DNA of 22,043 nucleotides from a virus, in IMG/VR virus record IMGVR_UViG_3300037189_014790, positions 1 through 22,043 of that record; one strand, given 5' to 3'. Made by a program: the position numbers and the translations under genes. The notes under the pieces are model-generated. The model was not told the origin of the DNA, searched no databases, and was given only the letters and a program-made list of their open reading frames with translations. Of this stretch, positions 1 to 22,043 are shown piece by piece. How positions within the stretch are numbered: position 1 is the first letter of the stretch; each line of letters begins with the position of its first letter.

Positions 1-499
1 AAATCCTTCTGGTGCTGCTGGTGGTGGTGGTGGTGGAGGTGTAGGTGGTGGACATTCAAGAAAAGTTATAGTGTTTACTGGTTCTGATTGGGGATTAACA
101 GTAAATTATGTTTCCAATTCTTCTGGTTCTTTTATTACTTCTGGAACTTATACTATTTCAACCATGTCTGCTTTTGTTGGTTCTAATGGTATTGATGGGA
201 ATGCTGGTGGTACTGGTGGTTCCGGTGGATCAGCTTCTGGTGGCGATACTAATGTAACAGGAACAGCAGGATCAAACAATGTTGGTCCCACTGGTGGTTC
301 CGGTGGTGGTTGTGATACAGGAGGAACTGATCCCGGTGGTGCTGGCCGTGAAGGTGGTGCTACTGGTGAAAATGGTGTGGGTGGTGATGCTCCCGGTGGT
401 GGTGGTGGTGGGGGCGGAAGAAATAATACTGCTTGTTGTCTTCCTAATGGTACTGGTGGTACTGGTGGTTCTCAGCGAGGTACATTTGCATTCACTTAA
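1..499 (+). CDS. glycine-rich tail-fibre/adhesin-like protein, C-terminal part (5' end outside window)
   Basis: The reading frame is open from the first bases of the window (frame beginning at base 2) and ends at TAA 497-499, so the start lies upstream; the GTG at 71 is internal. About 165 residues are visible. They are dominated by Gly with Thr, Ser, Asn and Asp, with runs of Gly-Gly-X that could form stacked polyglycine-II helices, as in the receptor-binding adhesins of some T4-like phages. A short less repetitive stretch (around VIVFTGSDWG and the following Ser/Thr-rich strands) separates two glycine-rich blocks. There is a single Cys in one block and a CC pair near the C-terminus. Its position at the edge of the virion gene cluster fits a tail fibre or tip protein. 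Composition, not homology, drives the call, so another glycine-rich structural protein is possible. Confidence 0.6.
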   Translation, partial: NPSGAAGGGGGGGVGGGHSRKVIVFTGSDWGLTVNYVSNSSGSFITSGTYTISTMSAFVGSNGIDGNAGGTGGSGGSASGGDTNVTGTAGSNNVGPTGGSGGGCDTGGTDPGGAGREGGATGENGVGGDAPGGGGGGGGRNNTACCLPNGTGGTGGSQRGTFAFT

Positions 500-502
500 A
501 CT

Positions 503-919
503 ATGTTAAAAAACAAAGAACTGCCTATTAAAGAAATGAATGTGGTTCAAATAACTCTGGAATATGCAGGAGATAAACTTCCCATGCATACTCATGTTCA
601 CGGAAACATTCATATAACAATTCTTTTAAAAGGAAAATTAAGAATTCATGGTCCTGATTTTGAAACCTTTATTTCTGAAGGTGAAGTTTATGATTTTAAG
701 GAAAATGAATACACTCATGAATTGGTCGCTTTGGTAGATAATACTGTCTTCCTAAATATATCTAAGAAGTATCAATCTAATGAAATGACAGAAGAAGAAT
801 TGAAACTTATGGAAGAACAAAGAAAGCTTGGAGAAATAAGAAATCAAGAATTTCGTCAAATGCAATTGGATATGATAAAAAGAATAGAAGAAGAAGACAG
901 GGCAAAAGGAATCATTTAA
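503..919 (+). CDS. small cupin-fold protein with charged helical tail
   Basis: The product is 138 aa. Residues about 14-88 read as a single cupin barrel: G23, then the histidine cluster MHTHVHG (H29, H31, H33), a Gly at 44 in LLKGKL, a second conserved stretch starting near G60, and H72 in THEL. This matches the cupin metal-binding pattern of His-X-His in motif 1 and His in motif 2. Residues 90-138 are Glu/Lys/Arg-rich and probably form a long helix or coiled coil. It starts 3 bases after the fibre-like gene and its stop abuts the next start, so the three are probably co-transcribed. The nearest GAGG lies about 24 bases upstream, so translation may depend on coupling. Cupins can be enzymes or purely structural, and I cannot tell which this is. 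A virion or fibre-assembly role is inferred from position only. Confidence 0.65.
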   Translation: MLKNKELPIKEMNVVQITLEYAGDKLPMHTHVHGNIHITILLKGKLRIHGPDFETFISEGEVYDFKENEYTHELVALVDNTVFLNISKKYQSNEMTEEELKLMEEQRKLGEIRNQEFRQMQLDMIKRIEEEDRAKGII

Positions 920-1699
920 ATGTATAAAGTTGTAAGGATTGTTATTGGTAAAGGTGATCAAAAAGTAATCCATGAACATTCTAGTCATTATGATTTTCAT
1001 GTAGCCAAAAGAGAATGTTTGAAAGAAACAAATAAATTCAAACAGCACTCTTTTGCAGCATTCAAATCTGGAAGAGTGAGTTTTGATGTTATTTCAGAAG
1101 AAGAATTGCATGAAATTTTTACATCTGATTCTAGAAGATCATTATCAAGAGGTGTTGAAATTGCTAGATCATATGGCAGACAAGCTGCTGATACTGGTAT
1201 GGGAGTAATGTCTGGTGCTCTAGCAGGTGCAGGTGCAGGTGCAATTGCAGGAATTCCTGTTGGTGCTCCCGGTCCAGTTGCTGCTGTTGGTGCTGCTGTT
1301 GGTGCTATTAAAGGTGGACATTGGTTTTCTGATATAGAACATAATTATAGGAAAGATACAAGAAAAAATTGGAAAATTGATGATCATATTAGAAAAAAAT
1401 ATGGAGTGGACGGTATACATGGTCTAAAACTTTTAGATCAAAAAGAAATTGCTTCAAGATATCCTGTTGGTTCAAAAGTAAAAGTAGATACAGGTGATAA
1501 TTTTCCTTCAAGAGTAACTGCTAGAGTTATGGGTTGGGATCATTCAAGAGAACACGGGTTATCCCTAAAAGCTGATGGTGATGATCAAGTTTATACTGGG
1601 TTTCATTCTCATAGAATCATAGGTCATGGATCAAGATATTTTGATCATGATAAGAGTTATGATGATTATAAATCTTTAAAACCTGAAGTTTTGACATAA
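920..1699 (+). CDS. glycine-zipper protein of unknown function
   Basis: The product is 259 aa. I do not recognise a named family. Residues 2-60 look like a small beta-alpha-beta domain ending in DVISEEE. Residues about 95-133 form a Gly/Ala-rich hydrophobic segment with small residues at regular spacing (GALAGAGAGAIAG and on to VGAAVGAIKGG), typical of a glycine-zipper membrane hairpin. Residues about 183-235 read as a beta-rich, possibly SH3-like domain, followed by an Asp/Tyr/Lys tail. The ATG directly follows the stop of the cupin gene, with AAGGA about 10 bases upstream. The order 'small domain then glycine zipper' recurs in the 506-aa protein at 13042-14562. The zipper suggests membrane insertion, perhaps in DNA entry, but this is inference. 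Confidence 0.75.
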   Translation: MYKVVRIVIGKGDQKVIHEHSSHYDFHVAKRECLKETNKFKQHSFAAFKSGRVSFDVISEEELHEIFTSDSRRSLSRGVEIARSYGRQAADTGMGVMSGALAGAGAGAIAGIPVGAPGPVAAVGAAVGAIKGGHWFSDIEHNYRKDTRKNWKIDDHIRKKYGVDGIHGLKLLDQKEIASRYPVGSKVKVDTGDNFPSRVTARVMGWDHSREHGLSLKADGDDQVYTGFHSHRIIGHGSRYFDHDKSYDDYKSLKPEVLT

Positions 1700-1711
1700 G
1701 GACTATGAACA

Positions 1712-2455
1712 ATGGTAACACCAACAACAAGGGCTGAATTCAAAGCATATATTCTTAGACGTTTAGGTGCTCCAGTATTAGAAATCAACATTGATGAAGA
1801 TCAGTTGGATGATCGTATTGATGATGCTCTTAAATATTATGCTGATTATCATTTTGATGGGGTAGAAGAAACTTACTACAAATATCAAGTAACTCCTACA
1901 GACGTAACCAACAAATATATAACTCTTCCAGATAATATTTTAGGTGCAGTTGATGTTTTCAATGCTGGTGATCCTTCCATCCGTACAGGTGATCTTTTCA
2001 ACATCAGATATCAAATTGCTTTGAATGATCTTTACACTCTTACTTCAGTTTCAGTCATTCCTTATTATATGACAAGAATGCATCTTTCTCTTTTGGCTGA
2101 AATTCTAGTTGGTAAATATCCTTTAAGATTTAATAGACACAACCATAAACTTTACATTGACACTGATTGGTCTGCAATTTCTGCAGGAAACTATTTGATT
2201 GTAAAAGCATATCAAGTTATTGATCCTGACACATATTATGGTATTTGGCAAGATCAATGGTTTAAGAAATATGCTACTGCATTAGTCAAAAAACAATGGG
2301 GTGAAAATCTTAAGAAGTTTACTGGAATGACTTTACCCGGAGGTATTCAATTCAATGGTCAAACAATATGGCAAGAAGCTGAAAACGAAATTCAGCAATT
2401 AGAACATGAAATGATTCATTCATATTCACTGCCTGTGCATGACCTAGTGGGATAA
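1712..2455 (+). CDS. 13: neck protein gp13
   Basis: The product is 247 aa. It is recognised as the T4 gp13 family by the N-terminus (LRRLGAPVLEINIDEDQLDD followed by a helix ending in YYADYHFDG), which is very like the gp13 of marine T4-like phages. T4 gp13 is about 309 aa, so this is a shorter form. gp13 and gp14 make the neck that seals the portal after DNA packaging and presents the docking surface for the tail. The ATG at 1712 has TAAGGA ten bases upstream; an ATG at 1705 is out of frame. The late promoter box for gp14 begins inside its last codons. The assignment is supported by gp14 and gp15 following in the T4 order. Confidence 0.9.
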   Translation: MVTPTTRAEFKAYILRRLGAPVLEINIDEDQLDDRIDDALKYYADYHFDGVEETYYKYQVTPTDVTNKYITLPDNILGAVDVFNAGDPSIRTGDLFNIRYQIALNDLYTLTSVSVIPYYMTRMHLSLLAEILVGKYPLRFNRHNHKLYIDTDWSAISAGNYLIVKAYQVIDPDTYYGIWQDQWFKKYATALVKKQWGENLKKFTGMTLPGGIQFNGQTIWQEAENEIQQLEHEMIHSYSLPVHDLVG

Positions 2456-2458
2456 ATA
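2451..2458 (+). promoter_or_regulatory. T4-type late promoter box upstream of gp14
   Basis: GATAAATA has one mismatch at the first base to the T4 late promoter octamer TATAAATA. It overlaps the stop codon of gp13 and lies 30 bases before the gp14 start. T4-like phages read such boxes with a phage sigma (gp55 type) and a sliding-clamp coactivator. A perfect palindrome (2460-2472) follows two bases later, about where the transcript would begin. Confidence 0.5.
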
Positions 2459-2459
2459 T

Positions 2460-2472
2460 GTCACACTGTGAC
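2460..2472 (+). repeat. 13-base perfect palindrome between gp13 and gp14
   Basis: GTCACACTGTGAC reads as GTCACA-C-TGTGAC and is followed by TTTT. As RNA it would form a 5-bp stem with a 3-base loop. It sits immediately downstream of the gp14 late box and upstream of the gp14 Shine-Dalgarno. It could be a weak attenuator, a 5' stabilising hairpin or an operator. The stem is too short for a confident terminator call. Confidence 0.35.
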
Positions 2473-2487
2473 TTTTAGGAAACAATA

Positions 2488-3222
2488 ATGGGCAAATCTA
2501 ATTTAAATGTTTACTTCAATAACTTTAATAGTAGCGGTGAGCAAGATTTAATTGAATCGCTCATTATTGAAAGTATTGGTATATACGGCATGGAATGCTA
2601 CTACTGCCCAAGAACACTTATTAATTATGATAAAGTATATGGAGAAGATTCTATTTCTCAATATTTGTCTTCTTACTATATTCCAATGTACATCAAAAAT
2701 GTACAGGGGTTTGGTGGAGATGGAGATTTTCTTTCCAAGTTCAATCTTCAAATCAGAGATTCAATGATCTTTACAGTAGCAAGAAGATCATTTGCAGATG
2801 AAATTGGATCAGTTGCAAATCTTGACAGACCACAAGAAGGAGATTTGGTTTACTTTCCTTTAAACAACAAAATTTTTGTTATTAAATTTGTTGAGCATGA
2901 ATCAATTTTTTATCAGATGGGCGCTTTACAGGTTTGGGATTTGTCTTGTGAACTTTGGGAATACTCAAATGAAACTCTTTCTACAGGTATTCAGAAAATT
3001 GATCAACTTCAAAAAACATTTGCTTATGATCTAACTTCTTTCTCTATTCTGGCAGAAAATGGTGAAAGAGTATATGCTGAAAGTGGTCACAGCATTGTTT
3101 TGGAAGAATATGATTATGATACTCAAGTTGGACAATATCTAAATGAAAACGATAAATTACAAGAAGAAGTTAACACTTTTCTAGACTTTTCAGAAACCAA
3201 TCCATTTGGTGAGAACGTATAA
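2488..3222 (+). CDS. 14: neck protein gp14
   Basis: The product is 244 aa, close to T4 gp14 (about 256 aa). Family features are the N-terminal segment with NVYFNNF, the conserved ESIGIYGMECYYCPR motif (T4-like gp14 has the same Tyr/Cys-rich motif), the DSMIFTVARR strand and the GDLVYFPLNNKIF strand. gp14 joins gp13 in the neck at the head vertex. It has its own late promoter box at 2451-2458 and a TAGGAAA ribosome-binding site. The final base of its stop is the first base of the gp15 ATG, so gp14 and gp15 are translationally coupled. Confidence 0.9.
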   Translation: MGKSNLNVYFNNFNSSGEQDLIESLIIESIGIYGMECYYCPRTLINYDKVYGEDSISQYLSSYYIPMYIKNVQGFGGDGDFLSKFNLQIRDSMIFTVARRSFADEIGSVANLDRPQEGDLVYFPLNNKIFVIKFVEHESIFYQMGALQVWDLSCELWEYSNETLSTGIQKIDQLQKTFAYDLTSFSILAENGERVYAESGHSIVLEEYDYDTQVGQYLNENDKLQEEVNTFLDFSETNPFGENV

Positions 3223-4268
3223 TGCTCACACATCATTTCTATCACTCAACTATAAGGAAATATGTGGTTCTTTTTGGATCAATGTTCAATGATATTTTCA
3301 TTGATCGTGTAGATTCATCAAACAATGCTGTTACCACAATGAAGGTTCCTATTTCTTATGGACCAAAAGAAAAGTTTCTAGCCAGACTTAATAATGATCC
3401 AACTCTATCCAGACCATTTGCTATGGTTCTTCCAAGAATAGCATTTCAAATAGATTCCATGTATTATGATGGTTCCAGAAAATTAACATCAACTAACAAG
3501 ATTAGGAACACATCAGCAACATCAGAAGATAAATTTAATTACGTTTATAATCCTGTTCCTTATAATTTTAATATCAAATTATATGTGATGGTTAAAAATC
3601 AAGAAGATGGTACAAGAATTCTAGAACAGATTCTACCATTCTTTACTCCTGCATGGACTTCTTCAGTTAACTTAATACCATCCATGAATACCTACATGGA
3701 TATTCCTATAAATCTTGACTCTGTTGAAATGATGGATACTTATGAAAACAATTTTGAAACAAGACGTGCAATCATTTGGACTTTGAACTTCACATTGAAA
3801 GGTTATTTGTTTGGTCCAGTTCATGATACTTCAGTAATCAAAAAGGTTATTGTTAATTTCTATACTCCTGTTGACAACTTCTTTACCTTTAAAGGTGATG
3901 GTAAACTTATAACAAACTCCAATACCAATATAGTAACAGGTATTCAAACAGATTTCACTGTAAAAAACATGGGTGTTGGTGCAAAGCTTTACTATTCAAA
4001 TGGTGTTTATATTGGTGCAGTCAATTCTATTCCAAACACTTCAACCTTATATTTGGTTGCCAATTCACCTTCTCATGCTGTTGAGACGGAATATAGATAT
4101 ACACCAAACACTGTTGTAAATGCAGCTAGAGTAGAAAGAATACAAATCACTCCCGGTTTGACTGCAAATGGTCAACCAACAACCAATTCTTCTCTTTCTA
4201 TAGATTATAATAATATTTCTGCCAATGATAACTATGGATTTATTGTAGAGTTTTTATCTGATGACTAA
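3222..4268 (+). CDS. 15: tail terminator / sheath stabiliser gp15 with extra beta module
   Basis: The product is 348 aa; T4 gp15 is about 272 aa. The N-terminus (THHFYHSTIRKYVVLFGSMF) and the IPINLDSVEMMDTYE and RRAIIWTLNFTLKGYLFGP stretches identify the gp15 family, which caps the tail tube and sheath and joins the tail to the neck. The extra length is largely a block at residues about 222-292, inserted before the usual C-terminal strands (VERIQITPGL onward). That block contains GVGAKLYYSNGVYIGAVNSI, a short beta module that recurs in gp18 of this phage. The start overlaps the gp14 stop by one base and the end overlaps gp16 by 8 bases. The sequence shows no frameshift. Confidence 0.9.
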   Translation: MLTHHFYHSTIRKYVVLFGSMFNDIFIDRVDSSNNAVTTMKVPISYGPKEKFLARLNNDPTLSRPFAMVLPRIAFQIDSMYYDGSRKLTSTNKIRNTSATSEDKFNYVYNPVPYNFNIKLYVMVKNQEDGTRILEQILPFFTPAWTSSVNLIPSMNTYMDIPINLDSVEMMDTYENNFETRRAIIWTLNFTLKGYLFGPVHDTSVIKKVIVNFYTPVDNFFTFKGDGKLITNSNTNIVTGIQTDFTVKNMGVGAKLYYSNGVYIGAVNSIPNTSTLYLVANSPSHAVETEYRYTPNTVVNAARVERIQITPGLTANGQPTTNSSLSIDYNNISANDNYGFIVEFLSDD

Positions 4269-4680
4269 TGATGTAGTGCCTGTTCATAATCAAATTGAAG
4301 AAGTAAATGATAAATTAAAAAAACTTCTTAAGTTTGATTCTGATTTTGAAAAGTCAAGAGAAAATATTATGACTGCTATAGAAACAGGTCAAACTGCTTT
4401 GAATGAAGTTTCTGTGCTTGCAAGTCAATCAGGAAGCTTTAAAGATTATGAAGCACTTTCTCATCTTATAAAAACTTTAATTGATGCCAACAGAACTCTA
4501 CTTGATTTGCATCAAATATCTTCAAAAATAGAAAGTGCCACAGGTTTAGGTAAAAAAGATAAAGATGGTGTTGAACAAATTAAAAATTATGGAAACACCA
4601 ACATCATCATGGTAGGTTCCAGTAAAGATATTTTGTCTTTATTGAACAATAAAAATATCACATTGGAAAATGAAGAATGA
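4261..4680 (+). CDS. 16: small terminase subunit gp16
   Basis: The product is 139 aa; T4 gp16 is about 164 aa. It is mostly helical, with a central helix pair and a C-terminal region containing GLGKKDKDGVEQIKNYGNTN, as in small terminases of marine T4-like phages. It overlaps gp15 by 8 bases and gp17 by 4 bases, the usual coupled arrangement. The small subunit forms a ring that recognises phage DNA and regulates the gp17 motor. The position directly before an unmistakable gp17 is the strongest evidence; the sequence itself is weakly conserved. Confidence 0.82.
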   Translation: MTNDVVPVHNQIEEVNDKLKKLLKFDSDFEKSRENIMTAIETGQTALNEVSVLASQSGSFKDYEALSHLIKTLIDANRTLLDLHQISSKIESATGLGKKDKDGVEQIKNYGNTNIIMVGSSKDILSLLNNKNITLENEE

Positions 4681-6305
4681 CCTACAATGGCAATCTAAAC
4701 CTAAAAAGAACAAATGTCAATCATGAATGGACTGCAGATCAATTAAAAGAATATAAAAAATGTCAAAAATCTGCAAAATATTTTATTGAAACATATGTAA
4801 AAATCATTCATGTTGATCATGGATGGGTTAATTTTAATTTAAGACCTTTTCAAAATAGAATGTTAAAATCTATTGTTGAAAATAGATTTACTATTTGTAA
4901 AGTACCTAGGCAGCAGGGAAAATCAATTCTTGTTGTAGGTATGCTTTTATGGTATATTCTTTTTCATGAAAACTGTGCTGTTGCACTTTTGGCACAGAAA
5001 GGTGAACAGGCTCAAGACTTGTTGTCCCGTTTACAGTTATCATATGAAGCTGTTCCTCATTGGATGCAACAAGGTATCAAGGAATGGAACAAACGTTCTA
5101 TCATTCTTGAAAATGGATCAAAGATTGTTGCATCATCAACTTCTTCTGGTTCAATCCGTGGTAAATCACAAAACATCATTTATCTTGACGAATTTGCTCA
5201 CATTCCTGCACATATTCAAGAAGAATTCTTTACTTCAGTTTATCCAACAATTTCATCTGGTGAATCAACCAAACTAATTATCACATCCACTCCACGTGGT
5301 TTGGACATGTTCTATAAAATTTGGGTTGATTCAGAAAATGGTAGAAACTCATATAACAGAGTTGAAGCACATTGGTCTGAAATTCCCGGTAGAGATGAAA
5401 AGTGGAAACAAGAAACAATCAAGAACACTTCTGAAAGACAGTTCAAACAAGAATTTGAAGTGGAATTCCTTGGTTCTTCTGATACTCTTATTGATGGATC
5501 AACTTTGAGAAGACTTGCTCACAATGATCCTATATCTCTTTCTGCACACCTTAAAGTCTACAATAAACCAGAGCAAGGCAAACCTTATGTGGTCACTGTA
5601 GACGTTGCTGAAGGCACCAACCATGACTGTTCAGCATTTATTGTGTTTGATATGTCTTCCATTCCTTATACTGTTGCTGCAGTTTACAAAAACAATTTAA
5701 TATCTCCTTTAGTGTTTCCTCATATCATTGAAGAAGTGGCTAAAAGATATAATGAAGCCTATGTTCTTGTGGAAACAAACAACATAGGACAACAAGTAGC
5801 AGATATTCTTTTCAGAGATATTGAATATGAATATGTTTTGATGACTGCACCTTCTGGTAAAAACGGTATTCAGATATCCACAGGATTTGGTTCTGGTGCA
5901 AAGGTTGGTGTTAAAACTACAAAACAAACAAAAAGAATTGGATGTTCCAATTTAAAATCTTTGGTTGAAAATGATAAATTATTGGTAAATGATTTTGATA
6001 TCATCTATGAACTGTCAAGATTTACCCTACAAGCAGGGTCTTATAAAGCAGAAGGTGATGGATATGATGATTTGGCTATGTGTTGTGTCATGTTTGGCTG
6101 GTTTCAGCAACAACAATTTGCAAAAGACTTAACAAACACTGATTTAAGAGCAAATCTATATAATAGTAATGCTGATAGTATAGAATCTGATCTTATACCT
6201 GTAGGAGAATACAATTCTGGAAAAGACACAAGAGAAACTGATTTGGTAGTAGACTTAGTAAATGATGATTTTGATAAATGGTTCAGAGATGATGTACCTG
6301 CATAG
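4677..6305 (+). CDS. 17: large terminase subunit gp17 (packaging ATPase and nuclease)
   Basis: The product is 542 aa; T4 gp17 is about 610 aa. The N-terminal ATPase has Walker A PRQQGKS at 77-83, Walker B IIYLDE at 167-172 and the coupling motif TSTPRG at 203-208. The C-terminal RNase H-like nuclease has its expected acidic residues: D309 in VTVDVAEG, E366 in LVETNN, and D464/D465 in DGYDDLA. All key catalytic positions appear intact. The protein docks on portal gp20, translocates DNA into the prohead and cuts at headful. It overlaps gp16 by 4 bases. The reading frame is uninterrupted and has no intron or intein, although gp17 is a common intron or intein target in other phages. Confidence 0.97.
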   Translation: MTYNGNLNLKRTNVNHEWTADQLKEYKKCQKSAKYFIETYVKIIHVDHGWVNFNLRPFQNRMLKSIVENRFTICKVPRQQGKSILVVGMLLWYILFHENCAVALLAQKGEQAQDLLSRLQLSYEAVPHWMQQGIKEWNKRSIILENGSKIVASSTSSGSIRGKSQNIIYLDEFAHIPAHIQEEFFTSVYPTISSGESTKLIITSTPRGLDMFYKIWVDSENGRNSYNRVEAHWSEIPGRDEKWKQETIKNTSERQFKQEFEVEFLGSSDTLIDGSTLRRLAHNDPISLSAHLKVYNKPEQGKPYVVTVDVAEGTNHDCSAFIVFDMSSIPYTVAAVYKNNLISPLVFPHIIEEVAKRYNEAYVLVETNNIGQQVADILFRDIEYEYVLMTAPSGKNGIQISTGFGSGAKVGVKTTKQTKRIGCSNLKSLVENDKLLVNDFDIIYELSRFTLQAGSYKAEGDGYDDLAMCCVMFGWFQQQQFAKDLTNTDLRANLYNSNADSIESDLIPVGEYNSGKDTRETDLVVDLVNDDFDKWFRDDVPA

Positions 6306-6371: not shown

Positions 6372-8711
6372 ATGGTTTTCCAAGTTTCACCCGGAATTAA
6401 TGTAAGTGAGTATGACCAACCAACAAGCATTCAGGTTGCATCTACAAGCGTAGGGGGCATTGGTGGTGTTTTTAGATGGGGTCCAGTAAGCAAATTAAAG
6501 CTTATTACAACAGAAAATGAATTGGTATCTTTCTACGGAAAACCAACAAATTTTAATGCTGAAACATGGTTTACAGCAGCAAACTTCCTATCTTATGGTT
6601 CTTCTTTGCAGGTTTCAAGAGGTGCCAATACCACAGGTAGTTCAAACACTGTAGAAGCAAACACTTTTTCAAACACAACAAGCTTTACTGTAGTAAACTC
6701 TGCTGCTGCTGGTGTTGGTCAAACAGCAATTTCTGTTGGTGATCTTGTTTATGGTCCCGGAGTTCCTGTAGGCACAGTTGTCACAGTAGCAAACATTGCA
6801 AACGCTACTACCACAAACACAATCTTTACACTTAGTAAAACGGTAACTACCACTAATGGTAGCTTCTTAATTTTCTCATCACCAAATACAGTGTTTACTG
6901 CTATTGCCAATAACGGAACATTTACTGGTAAACTTAGCACTTACATTGTAAAAAACGATGAAACATATGATTCTACACAGCAAAACTTTGCTGCAGTAGT
7001 TCCTTATGTTGCAAAATATCCCGGTGCTATTGGAAACACATTGAGAATTTCAGTTTGTGATACAGCCAATCAGTACTCAGCAAACATTGATCTTAAAAAC
7101 TTTTATACGAATACATCAGCCAATGCTACAAATACAGCATTAAGTGTTGGTGTTGGTTCAAATACCCTAACAATCACAGTTGCAAACACATCAGGCGCAA
7201 ATGATCTTCAGACAACAGGTTTAGCTAATAATATTGCTGCACTATTGGCTGTTGGTGATTATCTCTATGTTGGTAACAGCACAATTGGTTTTCAGTATCT
7301 ACAAGTCAATTCAACACCAACAGTAGTTACAGGAAACAATGCTGGCACAAATACTGGTATTGCTACTATCACAGTAAATCTTACAAATCAATATGTTCTT
7401 TCTGCAAACATCTCAATGACAAACTTTGCAAGATATTGGCAGTATTATAATGTTGTAAGCAAATCACCATCACAGACACAGTATCAAATCAATAACGGTA
7501 ACACATCTGCAAACGATGAACTTCATGTTGTTGTAGTTGATCGTCTAGGTCTTTTCTCAGGTGTTCCTGAAACAGTTCTTGAAGTCTATGATAGTGTTTC
7601 ACGTGCAACAGACGCAAAAACAGATACTGGTGCAGATAATTATTATAAAAACGTAATTAACAGAAATTCAAGATTTGTTTGGTGGGGTAATGATAGATCA
7701 ACAGCAGTTTCAAATACTGCATTGTATTTAACTTCTGGTTCTTCTTCAACACCACTAACACTGAATTTCAATTATGGTGCTGATGGTGCTGGAGAAAGCA
7801 CAGTTGGCTTTGGTCCAATTGCTTCTTCATATGACCAATTTGCAGATGCTAACTTTGTGGATGTAAATCTACTTCTTGGTGGTAAATCTGTTGGTGGTAC
7901 TTATGGAGAACAGTCTGGTAACTATATCATTGACAATGTTGCTTCAGTAAGAAGAGATTGTATGGTATTCCTTTCAACACCAGCAAACACTGTTGTTGCA
8001 AATTCAGGTGCAACTATTGGTAATGAATATGCTGCAGTGACTACTTGGGGAAATGCTATAAGACGTTCTACCTATGCTTTCTTAACCACAGGTTATAAGT
8101 ATCAGTATGACAAGTACAATGACATGTATCGTTGGATTCCAGACAATGGTGACATTGCAGGTACTTGTGTAAGAACTGACTATGAACGTGACCCTTGGTG
8201 GTCACCTGCTGGTTATAATAGAGGACAAATCAAAAATCTTGTTAAATTGGCTTATAACCCAAAGAAACAGGAAAGAGATATTCTTTATCAGGCATTCATT
8301 AATCCTGTAACCACAACTCCCGGTCTAGGAACAGTTCTTTTTGGTGACAAAACCCATTCAATTCTACCATCTTCTTTTGATAGAATTAACGTTAGAAGGT
8401 TGTTCATTGTTCTTGAAAAAGCTATTGCAAGCTATGCAAAAACTCTTCTCTTTGAATTCAATGATGATTTCACAAGAGCACAGTTTGTTTCACTTGTAAC
8501 TCCATTCTTGAGAGATATTCAGGGTAGACGTGGTATTTTTGACTTCAGAGTTGTTTGTGATGAAACAAATAACACTCCTGTTGTTATTGATAGAAACGAG
8601 TTTATTGGTGATATCTATGTTAAACCTGCACGTTCAATTAATTATATTCAGCTTAACTTTGTGGCTGTTAGAACAGGTGTTGCCTTTGAAGAAATTGTTG
8701 GTCAGTTTTAA
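6372..8711 (+). CDS. 18: contractile tail sheath protein gp18
   Basis: The product is 779 aa; T4 gp18 is about 659 aa. The N-terminus (SPGINVSEYDQ, then GGIGGVFRWGPV) and the C-terminal region (DRINVRRLFIVLEKAI, and a final domain ending near FVAVRTGVAFEEIVGQF) are those of gp18. The sheath polymerises around the gp19 tube and contracts on infection. The extra length is in Thr/Asn/Ser-rich surface modules: residues about 95-175 with ISVGDLVYGPGVPVGTVVTV, and about 260-345 with LAVGDYLYVGNSTIG. These resemble each other and the insert in gp15. The core folds at both ends that make the sheath lattice look complete. A late box and a strong ribosome-binding site precede it. Confidence 0.96.
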   Translation: MVFQVSPGINVSEYDQPTSIQVASTSVGGIGGVFRWGPVSKLKLITTENELVSFYGKPTNFNAETWFTAANFLSYGSSLQVSRGANTTGSSNTVEANTFSNTTSFTVVNSAAAGVGQTAISVGDLVYGPGVPVGTVVTVANIANATTTNTIFTLSKTVTTTNGSFLIFSSPNTVFTAIANNGTFTGKLSTYIVKNDETYDSTQQNFAAVVPYVAKYPGAIGNTLRISVCDTANQYSANIDLKNFYTNTSANATNTALSVGVGSNTLTITVANTSGANDLQTTGLANNIAALLAVGDYLYVGNSTIGFQYLQVNSTPTVVTGNNAGTNTGIATITVNLTNQYVLSANISMTNFARYWQYYNVVSKSPSQTQYQINNGNTSANDELHVVVVDRLGLFSGVPETVLEVYDSVSRATDAKTDTGADNYYKNVINRNSRFVWWGNDRSTAVSNTALYLTSGSSSTPLTLNFNYGADGAGESTVGFGPIASSYDQFADANFVDVNLLLGGKSVGGTYGEQSGNYIIDNVASVRRDCMVFLSTPANTVVANSGATIGNEYAAVTTWGNAIRRSTYAFLTTGYKYQYDKYNDMYRWIPDNGDIAGTCVRTDYERDPWWSPAGYNRGQIKNLVKLAYNPKKQERDILYQAFINPVTTTPGLGTVLFGDKTHSILPSSFDRINVRRLFIVLEKAIASYAKTLLFEFNDDFTRAQFVSLVTPFLRDIQGRRGIFDFRVVCDETNNTPVVIDRNEFIGDIYVKPARSINYIQLNFVAVRTGVAFEEIVGQF

Positions 8712-9356: not shown

Positions 9357-9965
9357 ATGTCTATGCCGTATACCTATTTAATTGGATGGTCTAAATTAAA
9401 TATTTTTTATTATGGTGTACGATATGCAAAAAATTGTTCACCAAACGATTTGTGGAATCCTTATAAAACATCTTCTAAGCATGTAAAAACATTTATTGAA
9501 AAAAATGGAGAACCTGATATCATTAAAATTAGAAAAACATTTAATGATAAAAATAAAGCTAGGATGTGGGAAGAAAAAGTATTAAAAAAATTAAATGTCA
9601 CCAATAATGATAAATGGTTAAACAAAATTGTTGGCAATTCTACTTTTGTAAATTTAGGGCATTCAGAAGAAACTAGAAAAATATTATCAGAAAGAAAAAT
9701 TGGAAAAAGAAGATCACTTTCTTCTTGTAAAAAACAATCAGAAACAATGAAAATATCTCAACTTGGAAGCAAAAACAATTCTTGTAAAAAAATTAGAGTA
9801 ATAGATAAATTTGGAGATAATGTTTTTGGCTCCATAAGTGAATACTGTGATTTTAGAAAAGATATACCAAAAAAAATGTATATATATGATAGATTTAATG
9901 CTTTCAAAAAAAATATTAAACAAAGAACAAACAAAGACATAATTTTAATGGAAAAGGTGATTTAA
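9357..9965 (+). CDS. GIY-YIG-like homing endonuclease between gp19 and gp20
   Basis: The product is 202 aa. The N-terminus carries a divergent GIY-YIG core: YLIGW at 7-11 and YYGVRYA at 18-24, then a conserved LW..YKTSSKHVKTFI stretch and WEEKVL at 71-76, which supplies the likely catalytic Glu. Residues 101-120 (GHSEETRKILSERKIGKRRS) are a NUMOD3 DNA-binding motif, and the Lys-rich C-terminus may be a helical DNA-binding domain of the NUMOD1 kind. It is Lys/Asn-rich and more AT-rich than its neighbours, as expected of a mobile gene. It ends one base before the gp20 ATG and its last codons contain the gp20 Shine-Dalgarno. There is no intron here, so it is free-standing. An alternative start is Met3 (9363). 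Confidence 0.8.
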   Translation: MSMPYTYLIGWSKLNIFYYGVRYAKNCSPNDLWNPYKTSSKHVKTFIEKNGEPDIIKIRKTFNDKNKARMWEEKVLKKLNVTNNDKWLNKIVGNSTFVNLGHSEETRKILSERKIGKRRSLSSCKKQSETMKISQLGSKNNSCKKIRVIDKFGDNVFGSISEYCDFRKDIPKKMYIYDRFNAFKKNIKQRTNKDIILMEKVI

Positions 9966-9966: not shown

Positions 9967-11544
9967 ATGCGACTTTTTGGATTTGAATTAGCCAGAGAAA
10001 AGAAACCGGAATTACCTACCTTTGTTGCTCCACAGACAGATGATGGTGCAGTTACTCTAGCAGCAGGTGCCTCTTATGGTCAATATGTTGACCTTGATGG
10101 CTCTGTCAGATCAGAAGCAGAATTAATCAACAAATATCGTCAAATGGCAGAACATCCAGAAGTGGAAACTGCCATTGACGATATTATTAATGAAATGATT
10201 GTTCTTGAAGATAGTAATGAAATCATTAAAGTTATTCTTGATGGTTTAAAAGAACTTCCTCCAAAAATTAAAGAAGCAGTAACCTCAGAATTTGAAGAAG
10301 CTAAAAGACTTCTACAATTTAATTCAAATGCTTATGAAATTGTAAAAAGATGGTATATTGACGGTAGATTATACTTCAATGTAATGATTGATCCAAAAAC
10401 ACCTGAAGCAGGTATTCAGGAATTAAGATATATTGATCCAAGAAAAATCAGAAAAATTAGAGAAATCAAAAAGAAAAGACATCAAGAAACAAACATAGCT
10501 GTTATGGATGATCCTTCTCTTGAATATTATATCTATAATGATAAAGGGTTTTTTGTTCCAACATACGGTTCTGTTGCTGCAGGAACATCTTCAGGTATTT
10601 CTTCTGGTGTAAGAATTGCCAAAGATACTGTTATTCAGGTAACTTCAGGTCAATCATCAGTTAAAGGAGATATGATTCTATCTTATCTTCATAAAGCAAT
10701 CAAGCCTTTAAACATGTTGAGAACGATGGAAGATTCACTTGTAATCTATCGTATTTCAAGAGCACCAGAAAGACGTATTTTCTATATTGACGTTGGTAAT
10801 CTTCCAAAACTTAAAGCTGAACAATATCTCCGTGATGTTATGGCTAAATTTAAAAACAAAGTTGTTTATGATTCATCAACAGGTGAAATCAGAGACGATA
10901 GAAAATTCATGACCATGTTGGAAGATTTCTGGCTACCACGTAGAGAAAACGGTAGAGGTACAGAAATCACAACTCTTCCCGGTGGTCAAAATCTAGGTCA
11001 GATTGAAGATATCGTATATTTTCAAAAGAAACTTTTCAATTCTTTGAATGTTCCTGTAACAAGATTGGAACCAGAACAAGGTTTTGGTATTGGTAGAGCC
11101 ACTGAAGTTTCAAGAGATGAAGTAAAATTTTCAAAGTTTGTAAGACGTTTGAGAATGAAGTTCTCAACACTGTTCACAAAAATCATTGGTAAAAATCTTG
11201 TTCTTAAAGGTGTCATGACTATTGAACAATGGGAACAGATTGCACAGTACATTAAGTTTCAGTTTGCCAAAGACAATTATTATGATGAATTGAAGAATGC
11301 AGAAGTTCTAAACAACAGAATGCAACTTCTTGGAACAGTGCAACCATTTGTTGGAGTTTATTTTTCATCATTATGGGTTAAGAAAAATATTCTTAGACAA
11401 GATGATAGTGAAATTGAAGAGATGGAAGAAGAAATGATTGAAGATACTCAGAATCCACTTATACAAAGAGCAAACATGATGAATGGTATGGAACCTGCTG
11501 GTGGACCGTTGGCTTCCCAACCAACTCAAATGGGCAAAAAATAA
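9967..11544 (+). CDS. 20: portal vertex protein gp20
   Basis: The product is 525 aa, almost the length of T4 gp20 (about 524). Typical features are the N-terminal MRLFGFELAREKK, the VETAIDDIINEMIVLE helix, the LRYIDPRKIRKIREIKKKR stretch, RTMEDSLVIYRISRAPERR, the conserved DFWLPRRENGRGTEITTLPG, and RLEPEQGFGIGRATEVSRDE. The C-terminus is acidic, then Gly/Pro/Gln-rich. The dodecameric portal nucleates head assembly, binds gp17 during packaging and then the neck. Its ribosome-binding site (AAGGTGA) lies inside the end of the upstream endonuclease gene, so expression depends on transcripts crossing that gene, for example from the gp19 promoter. Confidence 0.97.
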   Translation: MRLFGFELAREKKPELPTFVAPQTDDGAVTLAAGASYGQYVDLDGSVRSEAELINKYRQMAEHPEVETAIDDIINEMIVLEDSNEIIKVILDGLKELPPKIKEAVTSEFEEAKRLLQFNSNAYEIVKRWYIDGRLYFNVMIDPKTPEAGIQELRYIDPRKIRKIREIKKKRHQETNIAVMDDPSLEYYIYNDKGFFVPTYGSVAAGTSSGISSGVRIAKDTVIQVTSGQSSVKGDMILSYLHKAIKPLNMLRTMEDSLVIYRISRAPERRIFYIDVGNLPKLKAEQYLRDVMAKFKNKVVYDSSTGEIRDDRKFMTMLEDFWLPRRENGRGTEITTLPGGQNLGQIEDIVYFQKKLFNSLNVPVTRLEPEQGFGIGRATEVSRDEVKFSKFVRRLRMKFSTLFTKIIGKNLVLKGVMTIEQWEQIAQYIKFQFAKDNYYDELKNAEVLNNRMQLLGTVQPFVGVYFSSLWVKKNILRQDDSEIEEMEEEMIEDTQNPLIQRANMMNGMEPAGGPLASQPTQMGKK

Positions 11545-14567: not shown

Positions 14568-15389
14568 ATGACAGAAGATTTATTCAAAAATCCATATAAA
14601 ACATATTTGTTTGAAAACGATAACCCTTATAATTTACCACAGCTTTCTGATGGTACATATGTTGCGCCTGAAGTATTTAAACAAGGAGCAATAAGAAAAC
14701 ATTATCCCGGTCAAAAAGTATTATTTCATACAATAATACACAATCGTCTCCAGCAACAAAGACGTGCTGAAGCTAGGCAAATGCATGAATCTAATCTTAA
14801 AAGTTGGAATATTTCTTTAGAAGAAAATCTAATAACACCATTATCACAATTACCAAACGGTCTTTATGTAGCACCACATATGTCTTTGAGAAAAGGCAAT
14901 CTTTTAAAAAGAATGATAAACGATAATGGGGATCATGTAGTTTTTGTACATCCTCATATTTACAGACAAATTGCTCAAGACCATTCATTGGCAGAAGCCA
15001 GAATAAGAGATTGGAATGGTAGACTTGTTGATACAGATATTGGAGGTTATTATCATCCAGAAACAGGAAATTGGGTTCCTCATAAACCAGCATCTGGTGG
15101 TTGGACAAGACATGATTCAGGTATGCGTCCATCACGTTCTCCAGTAAACAAATCAAAATGGACTAAAGCAGCAGACCATTATGGTCCTATTAATAAAGCA
15201 GCACATGAAGCCAGAATGGAAGAAGCTAGAAAAAAAGCAGAAGCAAAAGAACTAAAAAGACTTGCTGATGAACAGTTATTAGTTAGAAGACAACAGTTAA
15301 TTAATAAAAGACAATCTGAAATAGACAATCCAACAGAACCAAAACCAAGAGGCAGACCACCAAAGAATAAAAATACTAAATGGTGGTAG
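14568..15389 (+). CDS. protein with two internal repeats and a C-terminal AT-hook, function unknown
   Basis: The product is 273 aa. Residues 23-80 and 92-149 are tandem copies of one domain. Each has LxQLx(D/N)GxYVAP, then a Gly, a strand with V(L/V)F, an (I/H)-rich segment, AEAR and a closing WN. A partial third copy may begin at GGYYHPETGNWVPHKP (159-174). Residues about 205-250 are a charged helix rich in Ala, Glu, Lys and Arg. The C-terminus carries PKPRGRPPKNK (258-268), a canonical AT-hook that binds the minor groove of AT-rich DNA. The gene begins 5 bases after the previous one and is co-transcribed with the core genes. A DNA-binding head-interior protein is a reasonable inference from the motif and the location. 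Confidence 0.75.
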   Translation: MTEDLFKNPYKTYLFENDNPYNLPQLSDGTYVAPEVFKQGAIRKHYPGQKVLFHTIIHNRLQQQRRAEARQMHESNLKSWNISLEENLITPLSQLPNGLYVAPHMSLRKGNLLKRMINDNGDHVVFVHPHIYRQIAQDHSLAEARIRDWNGRLVDTDIGGYYHPETGNWVPHKPASGGWTRHDSGMRPSRSPVNKSKWTKAADHYGPINKAAHEARMEEARKKAEAKELKRLADEQLLVRRQQLINKRQSEIDNPTEPKPRGRPPKNKNTKWW

Positions 15390-17568: not shown

Positions 17569-18945
17569 ATGTATCTTGCAGAACAAGTAATCAATAAGTG
17601 GGCACCAATTCTAGACCATGAAGACCTTGAACCAATTCGCGATGCTCATAAAAGAGCAACTGTAGCCACAATTCTGGAAAATACAGAAAAGGCTCTTGGT
17701 GAAGCTGGTTCTTATTCTCCAAGATCACTTCTTGAAGATGCTCCAGTTAACCAGACAGGTTCAAACATTTCAAACTTTGATCCAGTTCTAATTTCTTTAG
17801 TTAGACGTGCTCTACCAAACCTCATGGCATATGATGTCTGTGGCGTACAGCCAATGACAGGTCCAACAGGACTTATCTTTGCTATGCGTGCAAGATACAG
17901 CAACCAGACAGGTGGTGAAGCTTTCTACTCAGAAGCAAACTCAAGTTTTTCAACTCTAACTGCTGGCACTAACACTGCTGGTCAGCAGCAGGTTGGTAAT
18001 ATTCCCGGTAATACTACACAGACCATTAACTTGGCTTCTACCAACACCTATAACTGGGGTTCAGGTATGGCTACAGCTAACGGTGAAGCACTTGGTACTG
18101 CTAACTCAACTGGTGGTTATCCTTCTGCACAGAACATTCCAGAAATGGCTTTCTCAATTGAGAAAGTAACTGTTACTGCAAAAACACGTGCTCTCAAAGC
18201 TGAATACACACTAGAACTTGCACAGGATTTGAAAGCCATTCATGGTCTTGATGCAGAAACTGAACTCAGCAACATTCTTTCAACAGAAATTCTTGCTGAA
18301 ATCAACCGTGAAGTCATTCGTACAATCAACTTTACAGCCACACAGGGTGCTACAGAAGGTACAGTAACTGCTGGTGTATTTGACCTTGATACAGACTCAA
18401 ATGGTCGTTGGTCAGTTGAAAAGTTCAAAGGTCTAATGTTCCAGATTGAACGTGAATGTAACCAGATTTCAAAGGCTACAAGACGTGGTAAAGGCAATAT
18501 TCTAGTCTGTTCTTCAGACGTTGCTTCAGCACTACAGATGGCAGGTGTTCTTGATTATACACCAGCACTCAACAGCAACAATCTACAGGTTGATGATACT
18601 GGTAATACTTTTGCTGGTGTTCTTAATGGTAGAATTAGAGTTTATATTGACCCATATGCTGGTGGTCAGAACTCTGCTTCAGGACAGTACATGACAATTG
18701 GTTATAAGGGCGCATCAGCATTTGATGCTGGTCTATTCTATTGCCCATATGTTCCACTCCAGATGGTACGTGCAGTTGATCCCGGTTCATTCCAGCCAAA
18801 GATTGGTTTCAAGACACGTTATGGTATGGTAGCCAATCCATTTGCACAGGGTGCTACAGCATCTGCTTCATGGACAGCATCATCTGGTATTGATAAAGAT
18901 GCAAATGTTTATTATCGCCGCGTAATTATCAGCAACTTATTTTGA
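17569..18945 (+). CDS. 23: major capsid protein gp23 precursor
   Basis: The product is 458 aa; T4 gp23 is 521, and cyanophage forms are nearer this length. The N-terminal roughly 56 residues are the scaffold-like propeptide. A Leu-Leu-Glu at 54-56 followed by DAPVNQTG is the likely gp21 cut. The mature protein begins with the family motif region LVRRALPNLMAYDVCGVQPM and TGPTGLIFAMRARY. Other gp23 motifs are KTRALKAEYTLELAQDLKAIHGLDAE, GKGNILVCSSDVASALQ, and the C-terminal FKTRYGMVANPFAQG. Its codons use more C-ending forms than the neighbours, as expected for the most highly expressed gene. A late promoter, a strong leader and a downstream terminator make it an independent transcription unit. 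Confidence 0.98.
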   Translation: MYLAEQVINKWAPILDHEDLEPIRDAHKRATVATILENTEKALGEAGSYSPRSLLEDAPVNQTGSNISNFDPVLISLVRRALPNLMAYDVCGVQPMTGPTGLIFAMRARYSNQTGGEAFYSEANSSFSTLTAGTNTAGQQQVGNIPGNTTQTINLASTNTYNWGSGMATANGEALGTANSTGGYPSAQNIPEMAFSIEKVTVTAKTRALKAEYTLELAQDLKAIHGLDAETELSNILSTEILAEINREVIRTINFTATQGATEGTVTAGVFDLDTDSNGRWSVEKFKGLMFQIERECNQISKATRRGKGNILVCSSDVASALQMAGVLDYTPALNSNNLQVDDTGNTFAGVLNGRIRVYIDPYAGGQNSASGQYMTIGYKGASAFDAGLFYCPYVPLQMVRAVDPGSFQPKIGFKTRYGMVANPFAQGATASASWTASSGIDKDANVYYRRVIISNLF

Positions 18946-18973
18946 CAAACCTGTTCTAATATTTATCTTAAAA

Positions 18974-18997
18974 AGAGACTTACAAGTCTCTTTTTTT
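18974..18997 (+). terminator. intrinsic terminator after gp23
   Basis: AGAGACT-TACA-AGTCTCT forms a 7-bp stem with a 4-base loop, followed by an uninterrupted T run to 18997. The stem can extend by A-T pairs using the As before it. It lies 28 bases after the gp23 stop and isolates the capsid transcript from the endonuclease gene downstream. Confidence 0.85.
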
Positions 18998-19039
18998 GTG
19001 CTATATATAGAAGAGATTGAAAAAAAGAAAGGTTCTATC

Positions 19040-19891
19040 ATGGCTATAATTTATAAATTCACATCTCCTTCTGGTAAACATTATATTGGATTGACTTCTT
19101 CCACTATGGAAAGACGTTGGAGACAACATGTAACTCTTTACAATAAACTTTCACGTAAAGGTGTTGACTATCGTGGCAATTCAGCCACACCAATTCTATT
19201 CTATGCCTTTGATAAGTATAATCCAAACCTATGGGAACGTAAGATTCTTTTTGAAACGGATAATCTTGAGGAAGCAAAATCAAAAGAAATTGAATTTATT
19301 GCTGAATACAAAACTACAAATCCAAACTATGGTTACAATGTTCTTGTTGGTGGACAAACAGGTTGGGCAGGTAAAAATCTCTCTGAAAATCATAAAGAAA
19401 AACAATCAAAATCACGTATTTCTTGGTATGACACAGAAGAAGGAAAACTTTGGAAAGAACAACTCTCACAACGTTGGTCTAATACAGAAAACAATCCATC
19501 AACACTGCGTATTGGTCAGCCCGGATTTGCTCATACAGAAGAAAGTAAAGCTAAAATTTCTGCTGCCAATAAAGGTAGAAATTTAGGTGTATCAAGAGAT
19601 TTTACTGAAGAACATTGTAAAAATATTTCTAAAGCCAAAAAAGGTAAAAAGCTTTCTCCAGAACATAAAGAAAAGGTTGTAAATGCTCTTGTTGGAAGAA
19701 AACAACCAAAATCACAAAAACAAAAAGTAGCAGATGCCAATTCTATGGATTGGTTGGTCACAACTCCTGATGGTAAAGAAATAAAAATAACAAACCTTAG
19801 ACAGTTCTGTAAAGAAAACAATCTTTCTCAAGGAAGTTTAACTACTTATGGAAAATCAAAAGGTTTCAAAGTTCAAAAGCTTGAAATATAA
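19040..19891 (+). CDS. GIY-YIG homing endonuclease downstream of gp23
   Basis: The product is 283 aa. I chose ATG 19040 because GAAAGG lies 7-8 bases upstream. A GTG at 18998 in the same frame overlaps the terminator T run and is unlikely. The catalytic core reads IIYKFTSPSGKHYIGLT (3-19), RRWRQH (25-30) with the conserved Arg, a Glu at about 83 in KEIEFI, and the closing YGYNVL. Three NUMOD3 repeats follow (about 114-128, 164-180, 188-220), and a C-terminal DNA-binding domain spans 237-283 (TPDGKEIKITNLRQFCKENNLS...). It is free-standing, with gp23 apparently uninterrupted. A TATATATA (19002-19009), one mismatch from the late octamer, may be its promoter. It resembles the endonucleases that spread through T4-like genomes by cutting near conserved genes. 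Confidence 0.9.
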   Translation: MAIIYKFTSPSGKHYIGLTSSTMERRWRQHVTLYNKLSRKGVDYRGNSATPILFYAFDKYNPNLWERKILFETDNLEEAKSKEIEFIAEYKTTNPNYGYNVLVGGQTGWAGKNLSENHKEKQSKSRISWYDTEEGKLWKEQLSQRWSNTENNPSTLRIGQPGFAHTEESKAKISAANKGRNLGVSRDFTEEHCKNISKAKKGKKLSPEHKEKVVNALVGRKQPKSQKQKVADANSMDWLVTTPDGKEIKITNLRQFCKENNLSQGSLTTYGKSKGFKVQKLEI

Positions 19892-19894
19892 ATA
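19887..19894 (+). promoter_or_regulatory. T4-type late promoter box overlapping the endonuclease stop codon
   Basis: An exact TATAAATA octamer whose TAA (19889-19891) is also the stop codon of the GIY-YIG gene. It lies 30 bases before the start of the capsid-targeted 193-aa gene. Confidence 0.6.
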
Positions 19895-19923
19895 TTAAAT
19901 AAACAAAAAATAGAGATAAAGTC

Positions 19924-20505: not shown

Positions 20506-20512
20506 ATAAAAT

Positions 20513-20525
20513 TGGGTCTAACCCA
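20513..20525 (+). repeat. short GC-rich hairpin after the internal-protein gene
   Basis: TGGGT-CTA-ACCCA forms a 5-bp stem with a 3-base loop just after the stop at 20505. It is the first element of an unusually GC-rich, gene-free 90-base spacer. Confidence 0.4.
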
Positions 20526-20563
20526 CGAAGGTCTACAAAGAGGCCGCGCTTAACAAACTTTTT

Positions 20564-20593
20564 GAGGAGGTTTCACGTGAAACCTCCTCTTTT
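20564..20593 (+). terminator. 13-bp perfect inverted repeat, probable + strand terminator
   Basis: GAGGAGGTTTCAC (20564-20576) is directly followed by its exact reverse complement (20577-20589), then TTTT. This gives a very stable hairpin with an effective ACGT loop. It lies between the convergent ends of the 193-aa gene and the minus-strand Hsp20-like gene. The T run is short and present only on the + side, because the minus-strand side ends in A. It therefore best fits termination of the rightward transcript, perhaps also protecting 3' ends or blocking the convergent polymerase. Confidence 0.65.
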
Positions 20594-20595
20594 CA

Positions 20596-20925
20596 TTATT
20601 GCTTCAGATCAATATCATATGGTTTATTTTTATTTTCATCTGGTTCAATTGTAACCACAACTTGACCGTATTGATATTTGGCATTAATTTCACTCTTATC
20701 TATCTGATCATATGTTGAAATATAGCCAAAAACTCTGTTTTCAGGAACAAGAACTATAAGAATCTTTCGTTCTTTATTTGAAATTTTAATATTTACAGGA
20801 GAAATGCCCGGCAAATTAAATATATAAGTCTTTTTTCCTGATGTATGACTATGCTTTGCAGGAACAAAAACTTCCTTCTTTGGAGTAAGATCAATAACTC
20901 CCTTAAAAATATCTGCAAGTTTCAT
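20596..20925 (-). CDS. Hsp20-like small heat-shock protein (alpha-crystallin domain)
   Basis: The product is 109 aa. I chose the start at 20925 (MKLADIFKGVID), which has CGGAGA a few bases upstream; a longer frame to 21126 runs through the promoter region of the next gene. The alpha-crystallin core is seen in YIFNLPGISPVNIKISN, KERKILIVLVPENR, and the closing YQYGQVVVTIEPDEN, matching the Hsp20 strand pattern (the usual NLPG and G-V-hydrophobic-T-I-hydrophobic-P positions). It is short and lacks an obvious long N-terminal arm or an IXI tail. Hsp20-like genes are a known feature of marine T4-like phages and may help fold virion proteins. It is the only minus-strand gene in the window. I see no good late promoter on its strand, so it may be transcribed at another time. 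Confidence 0.75.
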   Translation of the reverse strand: MKLADIFKGVIDLTPKKEVFVPAKHSHTSGKKTYIFNLPGISPVNIKISNKERKILIVLVPENRVFGYISTYDQIDKSEINAKYQYGQVVVTIEPDENKNKPYDIDLKQ

Positions 20926-21013
20926 AACCGTCTCCGTTTTATAATTAACCACAAAATGAGGATATACCTCTTTAGAGAATGTATCAACTAAAAAAAGTTT
21001 AATGATAAGGATA

Positions 21014-21021
21014 GATAAATA
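21014..21021 (+). promoter_or_regulatory. T4-type late promoter box upstream of the peptidase gene
   Basis: GATAAATA (one mismatch to TATAAATA) lies 28 bases before the ATG at 21050 in the divergent gap between the Hsp20-like gene and the peptidase gene. Confidence 0.5.
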
Positions 21022-21049
21022 ATTAAATGATTTGAACAAGGAGATATTT

Positions 21050-21562
21050 ATGACTAAAGACCCTAAGTGGATTGAATTAGCCAAAAAAGAAGTTGGAACA
21101 AAAGAAGGTGTTGGTTCAGCAAACAACCCTAAAGTAGTTTCATACTGGAAAGATGCTCAACTATCATGGATTACAGATGATGCAACTCCTTGGTGTGCAG
21201 GATTTGTTAATGCTATGTTGGAACGTGCAGGTATCAAAGGTACACGTAAAGCCAATGCCAGAAGCTTTCTGACTTGGGGTATCAATGTAACCAATGGTTT
21301 CAGGTCTACCCCTTACTATGGCTCTATTGTAGTGTTTTCACGACCACCTTCCCTTTGGAATGGTCATGTAGGCTTTCTGATAGCACATGACAAGAATAAC
21401 GTTTTGGTCATTGGTGGAAATCAGGGAGATAAAGTTTCCTATGCAGTATTTCCAAAATCAAGAGTCATTGGTGTGAGATATCCAACTCTACCAACTAATG
21501 ACATGCTTCTACAAGAAGTTTCCAATTTAAATGGTTATAAACCATCACCTTCTGAGGCTTAA
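21050..21562 (+). CDS. CHAP/NlpC-P60-type cysteine peptidase, probable peptidoglycan hydrolase
   Basis: The product is 170 aa. The ATG at 21050 is set by AAGGAG at 21038-21043; a TTG at 21032 is upstream of that site and unlikely. The catalytic triad is visible: Cys49 in TPWCAGFVNAML, His106 in NGHVGFLI, and a polar residue at GGNQ (N124). This is the pattern of TIGR02594-like/CHAP hydrolases. An N-terminal helix (WIELAKKEVGTKEGVG) with NNPKVVSYW is typical of this group. There is no signal peptide or separate wall-binding domain. It could be the endolysin (needing a holin outside this window) or a tail-associated wall hydrolase. It has its own late box, and the following gene uses a ribosome-binding site inside its end. 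Confidence 0.8.
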   Translation: MTKDPKWIELAKKEVGTKEGVGSANNPKVVSYWKDAQLSWITDDATPWCAGFVNAMLERAGIKGTRKANARSFLTWGINVTNGFRSTPYYGSIVVFSRPPSLWNGHVGFLIAHDKNNVLVIGGNQGDKVSYAVFPKSRVIGVRYPTLPTNDMLLQEVSNLNGYKPSPSEA

Positions 21563-21566
21563 GTGA

Positions 21567-22043
21567 ATGTTAAAAACTTTTATAGATTATTATAGAGATT
21601 TACGTGATGAACACCAATCTAGAAAAAAAACTAGACAATTTGAAAAAGATAAACAAAATTATTCACATGTTTATGATAAAGCTATGACAACATATAGACA
21701 ATACAAAAATAAAAAAACTTCTCCTCACGAAAAGGAAAGTTTAGTGAGAGTATTACAACACCATCAATCAGAATTGAAAAGAATGGGAAGTTTACACCAT
21801 CCAGATATAAAAATTAAAGATCATTATGGTTTCATTCATAATGAAGGAAGAAAATCTCCTTTAAAATATTGGAACATCAACAAATTACATAGATTTTCAA
21901 AAGAATTTTCTTATTCATATCCTGAAATGGAAAAACTTTCACATGAAAAAGGTGGTGATCTTCCTGAAGAATTTTATTCAAACAGTTTCGTTTTACATCC
22001 CTCTGATAGAAAACTTATTAAAAATGAAATAGATAGGAGAGAG
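21567..22043 (+). CDS. His/Lys-rich unknown protein, N-terminal part (runs off window)
   Basis: An open frame starts at ATG 21567 and continues with no stop for 159 codons to the end of the window. GAGG at 21553-21556, inside the end of the peptidase gene, serves as the ribosome-binding site, and the gap between the genes is 4 bases. The product begins MLKTFIDYYRDLRDE and is rich in Lys, His, Tyr and Ser. It has a charged, probably helical stretch (about residues 18-70), then aromatic-rich segments such as HPDIKIKDHYGFIHNEG. I recognise no family. In composition it resembles the 506-aa, 273-aa and 193-aa proteins, so it may belong to the same presumed head-interior group. The N-terminus is only weakly like a capsid-targeting sequence. 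Confidence 0.65.
   Translation, partial: MLKTFIDYYRDLRDEHQSRKKTRQFEKDKQNYSHVYDKAMTTYRQYKNKKTSPHEKESLVRVLQHHQSELKRMGSLHHPDIKIKDHYGFIHNEGRKSPLKYWNINKLHRFSKEFSYSYPEMEKLSHEKGGDLPEEFYSNSFVLHPSDRKLIKNEIDRRE

Follow-up and report, generated by a model that had tools for sequence, protein, structure and literature searches.

Complete loss of CCWGG sites from several T4-like phages, probably under restriction by their hosts

According to our analysis, a 22,043-nt fragment of a T4-like phage genome (an entire viral record, examined over its full length and called the window below) contains not a single CCWGG site, and the same absolute lack is found in several related contigs. Summed over those contigs, the window and its extension, there are 0 CCWGG in about 254 kb, against about 260 expected from synonymous codon shuffling, which makes these phages a very clean example of restriction pressure recorded in nature. 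We propose that they have been under strong and lasting selection against every CCWGG, exerted by type II restriction-modification of hosts that cut the unmodified site, and we give this reading a probability of about 0.87; a host restriction enzyme is, judging from sequence, probably the selecting agent. The reading is favoured by the repeated origin of the loss, by second lost palindromes that differ between lineages, and by the restriction of such losses to palindromes.

By exact count, CCAGG, CCTGG and CCGGG are each absent from the plus strand of the window, and, as CCWGG is its own reverse complement, the count on one strand covers both. CCCGG occurs 16 times on the plus strand, and every occurrence lies in frame on a Pro-Gly pair, 15 of them as CCC-GG and one as CCG-GGC in a minus-strand gene. 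A first-pass annotation, made by eye, had listed no CCWGG and 16 CCCGG, all on Pro-Gly and including one in a homing endonuclease gene and one on the minus strand; our recount returned the same zero and the same 16 coordinates and reading frames. The features are as follows, with the proline codons of relatives where these could be compared.

1..22043, no strand: whole window, part of a T4-like virion and packaging module; 0 CCWGG, 0 RGATCY, 0 GAGCT
332..336, plus strand: CCCGG on Pro-Gly, Gly-rich ORF 2-499, no assigned function
392..396, plus strand: CCCGG on Pro-Gly, same Gly-rich ORF 2-499, no assigned function
1268..1272, plus strand: CCCGG on Pro-Gly, ORF 920-1699, no assigned function
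2336..2340, plus strand: CCCGG on Pro-Gly, head-tail adaptor ORF 1712-2455; relatives CCA 37, CCT 48, CCC 8, CCG 1
4152..4156, plus strand: CCCGG on Pro-Gly, tail sheath stabilizer ORF 3222-4268
5385..5389, plus strand: CCCGG on Pro-Gly, terminase large subunit ORF 4677-6305; relatives CCW 212, CCS 18
6390..6394, plus strand: CCCGG on Pro-Gly, tail sheath ORF 6372-8711; relatives CCW 57, CCS 9
6756..6760, plus strand: CCCGG on Pro-Gly, tail sheath ORF 6372-8711
7020..7024, plus strand: CCCGG on Pro-Gly, tail sheath ORF 6372-8711; relatives CCW 155, CCS 9
8319..8323, plus strand: CCCGG on Pro-Gly, tail sheath ORF 6372-8711; relatives CCW 236, CCS 15
10978..10982, plus strand: CCCGG on Pro-Gly, portal ORF 9967-11544; relatives CCW 167, CCS 22
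14706..14710, plus strand: CCCGG on Pro-Gly, ORF 14568-15389, no assigned function
18004..18008, plus strand: CCCGG on Pro-Gly, major capsid protein ORF 17569-18945; relatives CCW 51, CCS 3
18781..18785, plus strand: CCCGG on Pro-Gly, major capsid protein ORF 17569-18945; relatives CCW 16, CCS 0
19520..19524, plus strand: CCCGG on Pro-Gly, GIY-YIG/NUMOD3 homing endonuclease ORF 18998-19891
20807..20811, minus strand: CCG-GGC on Pro-Gly, weakly Hsp20-like ORF 20596-21126 (PF00011, E=0.005, below cut-off)

No Pro-Gly pair in the window is written in any way other than CCC-GG or CCG-GG. Ahead of GG the proline codons are CCA 0, CCT 0, CCC 15 and CCG 1, and in other contexts CCA 136, CCT 107, CCC 7 and CCG 3; the share of CCA and CCT is thus 0/16 against 243/253, just as the annotation had it in saying that proline elsewhere is nearly always CCA or CCT. 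A maximum-order Markov model predicts 21.7 CCWGG in the window and a synonymous codon shuffle 19.0 +/- 2.4 (lowest value 12 in 2000 shuffles), whereas CCSGG, with 16 copies, greatly exceeds the 2.1 given by the shuffle; among the palindromes tested in the window CCWGG is the most strongly avoided. About 4.6 of the shuffle-expected sites fall in the two frames other than that of Pro-Gly, and these are missing as well, so the effect is more than a habit of Pro-Gly codons. A lineage-wide preference for the CCC-GG codon pair, with no DNA enzyme involved, would account for the bias being clearest at Pro-Gly, yet it leaves the other two frames unexplained, and relatives write CCW-GG at the very same positions: at ten conserved Pro-Gly positions where the window has CCC, 983 of 1068 comparisons with them show CCA or CCT (the comparisons being non-independent, as the relatives share ancestry), and it follows that the sites were removed by synonymous swaps. 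Moreover, the same zero recurs in lineages whose GC content ranges from 31 to 43% and whose codon usage differs, so no one codon usage can account for it. We regard a codon-pair habit as refuted by the zero in all frames together with the normal counts in relatives, and its probability as negligible.

The window carries PHROG matches, in order, to terminase, sheath, tube, portal, protease, scaffold and major head protein, which keeps the order of the T4-like superfamily (gp17, gp18, gp19, gp20, prohead protease, scaffold and gp23 families). Head, portal, sheath and terminase families are held in common with the T4-like phages Melnitz, Mosig, HTVC008M and S-SRM01, and the virion genes resemble those of T4-like phages of cyanobacteria, Pelagibacter and Methylophilales; amino-acid identity to cultured T4-likes is about 52-68% in capsid and terminase, the CCWGG counts below being those of metagenomic relatives only. 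There are two homing-type endonuclease genes, at 9357-9965 and 18998-19891. The former, on the plus strand, sits between tail tube and portal and has a 49% relative (L265:7750-8382) in the more distant contig G004, while in two closer contigs, G001 and G002, the same junction has no insertion. A second metagenomic contig of the window phage (G008), 99.93% identical over 13,000 bases, extends it by 18,778 bases with UvsW-like, gp46-like and RNA ligase genes, and CCWGG is again absent; in the 18.8 kb of the same phage that can be read beyond the window, therefore, the site does not reappear. The 3' extension also encodes an ADP-ribosyltransferase exoenzyme domain (PF03496, E=8e-17; L409:53-727, plus strand), the product of which is, by sequence, probably a T4 Alt/Mod-like protein acting on the bacterial host.

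Relatives were gathered via terminase, capsid, sheath and portal. Among 136 of at least 9 kb, taken with no choice based on the site, the median ratio of observed to expected CCWGG is 0.99 and five have none; 184 control loci, picked for holding at least two CCWGG, have 3336 against 3278 expected. A compositional habit shared by the whole phage group is not what these counts describe, since CCWGG is normal in most relatives and its loss is atypical of the group, and the relatives that keep CCWGG show no CCC-GG bias. With zero against 19-22 expected in the window and normal counts in most relatives, the claim of strong selection against CCWGG stands.

Exactly zero CCWGG is found in the contigs G001 (9.4 kb), G002 (15.7 kb), G004 (93.1 kb), G005 (79.7 kb) and G009 (16.5 kb); a further contig of 31.9 kb, G003, was left out of the sum as near-identical to G005 over their shared stretch. 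Sisters of the window phage are G001, G002 and G009 (terminase 83%, DNA identity about 76-80% in aligned parts), and G004 and G005 stand farther off (terminase 44%, capsid 65%). CCWGG is likewise missing from the short loci L097, L107 and L383, where the expected numbers are too low to count.

On a tree of portal sequences the zero-CCWGG phages require three changes, and their placement in one clade is rejected (AU p=0.0012). We accordingly rejected a single ancestral purge, although long branches weaken this rejection somewhat. The closest portal relative of G004 is G006, which has 4 CCWGG. On this tree, with the long branches as a caution, the loss arose more than once in the T4-like group.

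The contig G006 (L402-L403, 21.6 kb) deserves a mention of its own. Its portal is 88% identical to that of G004, and it holds 4 CCWGG against 15.9 expected and 0 RGATCY against 10.2 expected; it looks like an intermediate, part-way in losing, or regaining, CCWGG. Other loci near G006 and G004 have normal CCWGG counts.

As to the way in which the sites were lost, methylated CCWGG is an established mutation hot spot, as known from Dcm and Vsr, and deamination under a Dcm-like methylase of host or phage could in principle turn CCWGG into CTWGG/CCWAG with no selection at all. The deamination products are, however, at expectation in the window lineage (86 observed, 82.0 expected), in G004 (206/198.6) and in G002 (39/36.6), and only slightly up in G005 (292/253.1), and the retained Pro-Gly codons, CCC and CCG, are not products of CCWGG deamination. 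Other one-base neighbours of CCWGG are mostly near expectation in the window lineage, with TCWGG/CCWGA mildly raised (181/154.9), and CAWGG/CCWTG is mildly raised in G004 and G005. A Dcm-like methylase had also been proposed as something to look for in the phage: PF00145 has no match in the window or the contigs, which are genome fragments, and PF01555 none in the contigs other than the window, likewise partial genomes. The counts of neighbouring words led us to reject deamination, and we consider mutational decay very improbable. CCSGG, in turn, exceeds its expectation in all genomes that have no CCWGG, in agreement with the earlier view that CCSGG is tolerated and that the specificity is for the W centre. 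The loss thus reads, from these word counts, as selection with synonymous escape rather than decay. Under host restriction, phages with the site would be counter-selected in hosts that cut unmodified CCWGG; most sites would disappear silently, CCA or CCT before glycine changing to CCC or CCG and giving CCSGG that the enzyme does not read, and CCWGG in other frames would be removed through ordinary substitutions.

CCWGG, the word that the annotation had singled out, proves to be just one of several avoided words. The window phage has lost RGATCY (0/12.0) and kept CTGCAG (11/14.9), while G002 and G009 have kept RGATCY (24/29.0) and lost CTGCAG (0/8.2); in G004 and G005 about a dozen palindromes are missing. 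Total loss of single palindromes (CCGG, ACGT, CATG, GATC, TTSAA and others) is found in 35 of 162 distinct loci, a number that includes the zero-CCWGG contigs and counts long contigs in pieces. Non-palindromic 5-mers of equal expectation reach zero in 7 of 65,995 cases, and most of these 5-mers are one half of a palindrome that was itself lost, from which it follows that the loss is specific to palindromes.

A number of further absences were noted in the same material. TTSAA, CASTG, GGWCC/ACGT or CATG are entirely absent from the T4-like loci L338, L335; L326; L090; L342, L349, L053, and each of these words is plausibly a type II recognition word. Among non-palindromic words, GAGCT/AGCTC is avoided in the window (0/12.1), G008 (0/13.6), G009 (1/10.1) and G002 (0/8.9), with no such avoidance in G004 and G005; GACATC/GATGTC is avoided in G004 (1/35.4) and G005 (0/33.1), where CTCCAG/CTGGAG is almost missing too (1/13 and 0/15). 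It is unusual for asymmetric words to be lost, and the avoidance of GAGCT and GACATC is beyond what simple type II restriction explains. In G005 (L270-L273, 79.7 kb) CGNNCG in all its forms numbers 0 against 58.2 expected; its median ratio is 1.03 in 135 long loci with enough expected sites, zero being found only in the four G005 pieces, and a restriction specificity for CGNNCG is possibly the reason. G005 also encodes, at L271:7106-8251 on the plus strand, PfkB-like and cytidylyltransferase domains in a single protein similar to an enzyme of ADP-heptose synthesis; sugar epimerase and glycosyltransferase genes lie close by.

The nuclease might instead belong to the phage: an endonuclease specific for CCWGG, carried with no methylase and directed at host or rival DNA, against which the phage is immune through the loss of its own sites. 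Such an enzyme would suit a loss that is total and maintained across large divergence, and the window does carry two homing-type endonuclease genes. We nevertheless find it unlikely, as the portal tree spreads the zero-CCWGG phages over more than one clade, relatives of the gene at 9357 lie in loci where CCWGG is retained, G001 and G002 lack the site with no space for that gene between tail tube and portal, and one phage enzyme does not explain why second lost palindromes differ between sisters. The EcoRII-C and MvaI_BcnI nuclease domains found no match in the contigs, all of them genome fragments, a point of little weight as the controls of both searches gave no signal either. Also quite improbable is a self-inflicted loss in which a mobile, methylase-free CCWGG nuclease lies beyond the sequenced parts and each lineage that gains it purges its own genome.

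Returning to restriction by hosts, the proposal of an EcoRII/Dcm-type system in the host range is supported as regards selection on CCWGG and less so as regards the enzymes named: Dcm does not itself restrict, and EcoRII acts poorly on lone sites. A search of bacterial genome contigs (GTDB) for the host gave three distant phage-like hits, all of which keep CCWGG, and the tRNA genes and Pfam domains of the long contigs gave no pointer to a host. Lost words could reveal restriction enzymes of hosts directly from phage genomes, and matching them to the enzyme repertoires of hosts may aid in linking uncultured phages to their hosts.

Among known enzymes, EcoRII (type IIE), MvaI, BstNI and PspGI recognize exactly the avoided word and spare CCSGG, as would the enzyme that we infer here. 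EcoRII cleaves efficiently when it is bound to two or three sites (PMC4081073) and so fits the removal of the last site worse than a single-site cutter does; since the last site is gone over tens of kb, the enzyme probably needs just one CCWGG to cut, MvaI/BstNI/PspGI-like rather than EcoRII-like. According to Rusinov et al. 2018 (PMC6286503), about one in ten viral genomes have lost restriction sites entirely or almost entirely, and the sites concerned are almost solely those of orthodox type II systems; our literature search on phages that avoid CCWGG turned up no closer case. As in those lytic dsDNA phages, one type II palindrome is wholly lost here from a large phage of non-temperate type and most other words keep their normal frequency. 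What differs is that the loss recurs here in separate T4-like lineages, some relatives having the site and others lacking it, and that G006 appears to be an intermediate. The strategy of eliminating restriction sites is a known one, and in these phages it is unusually complete, clean and convergent.
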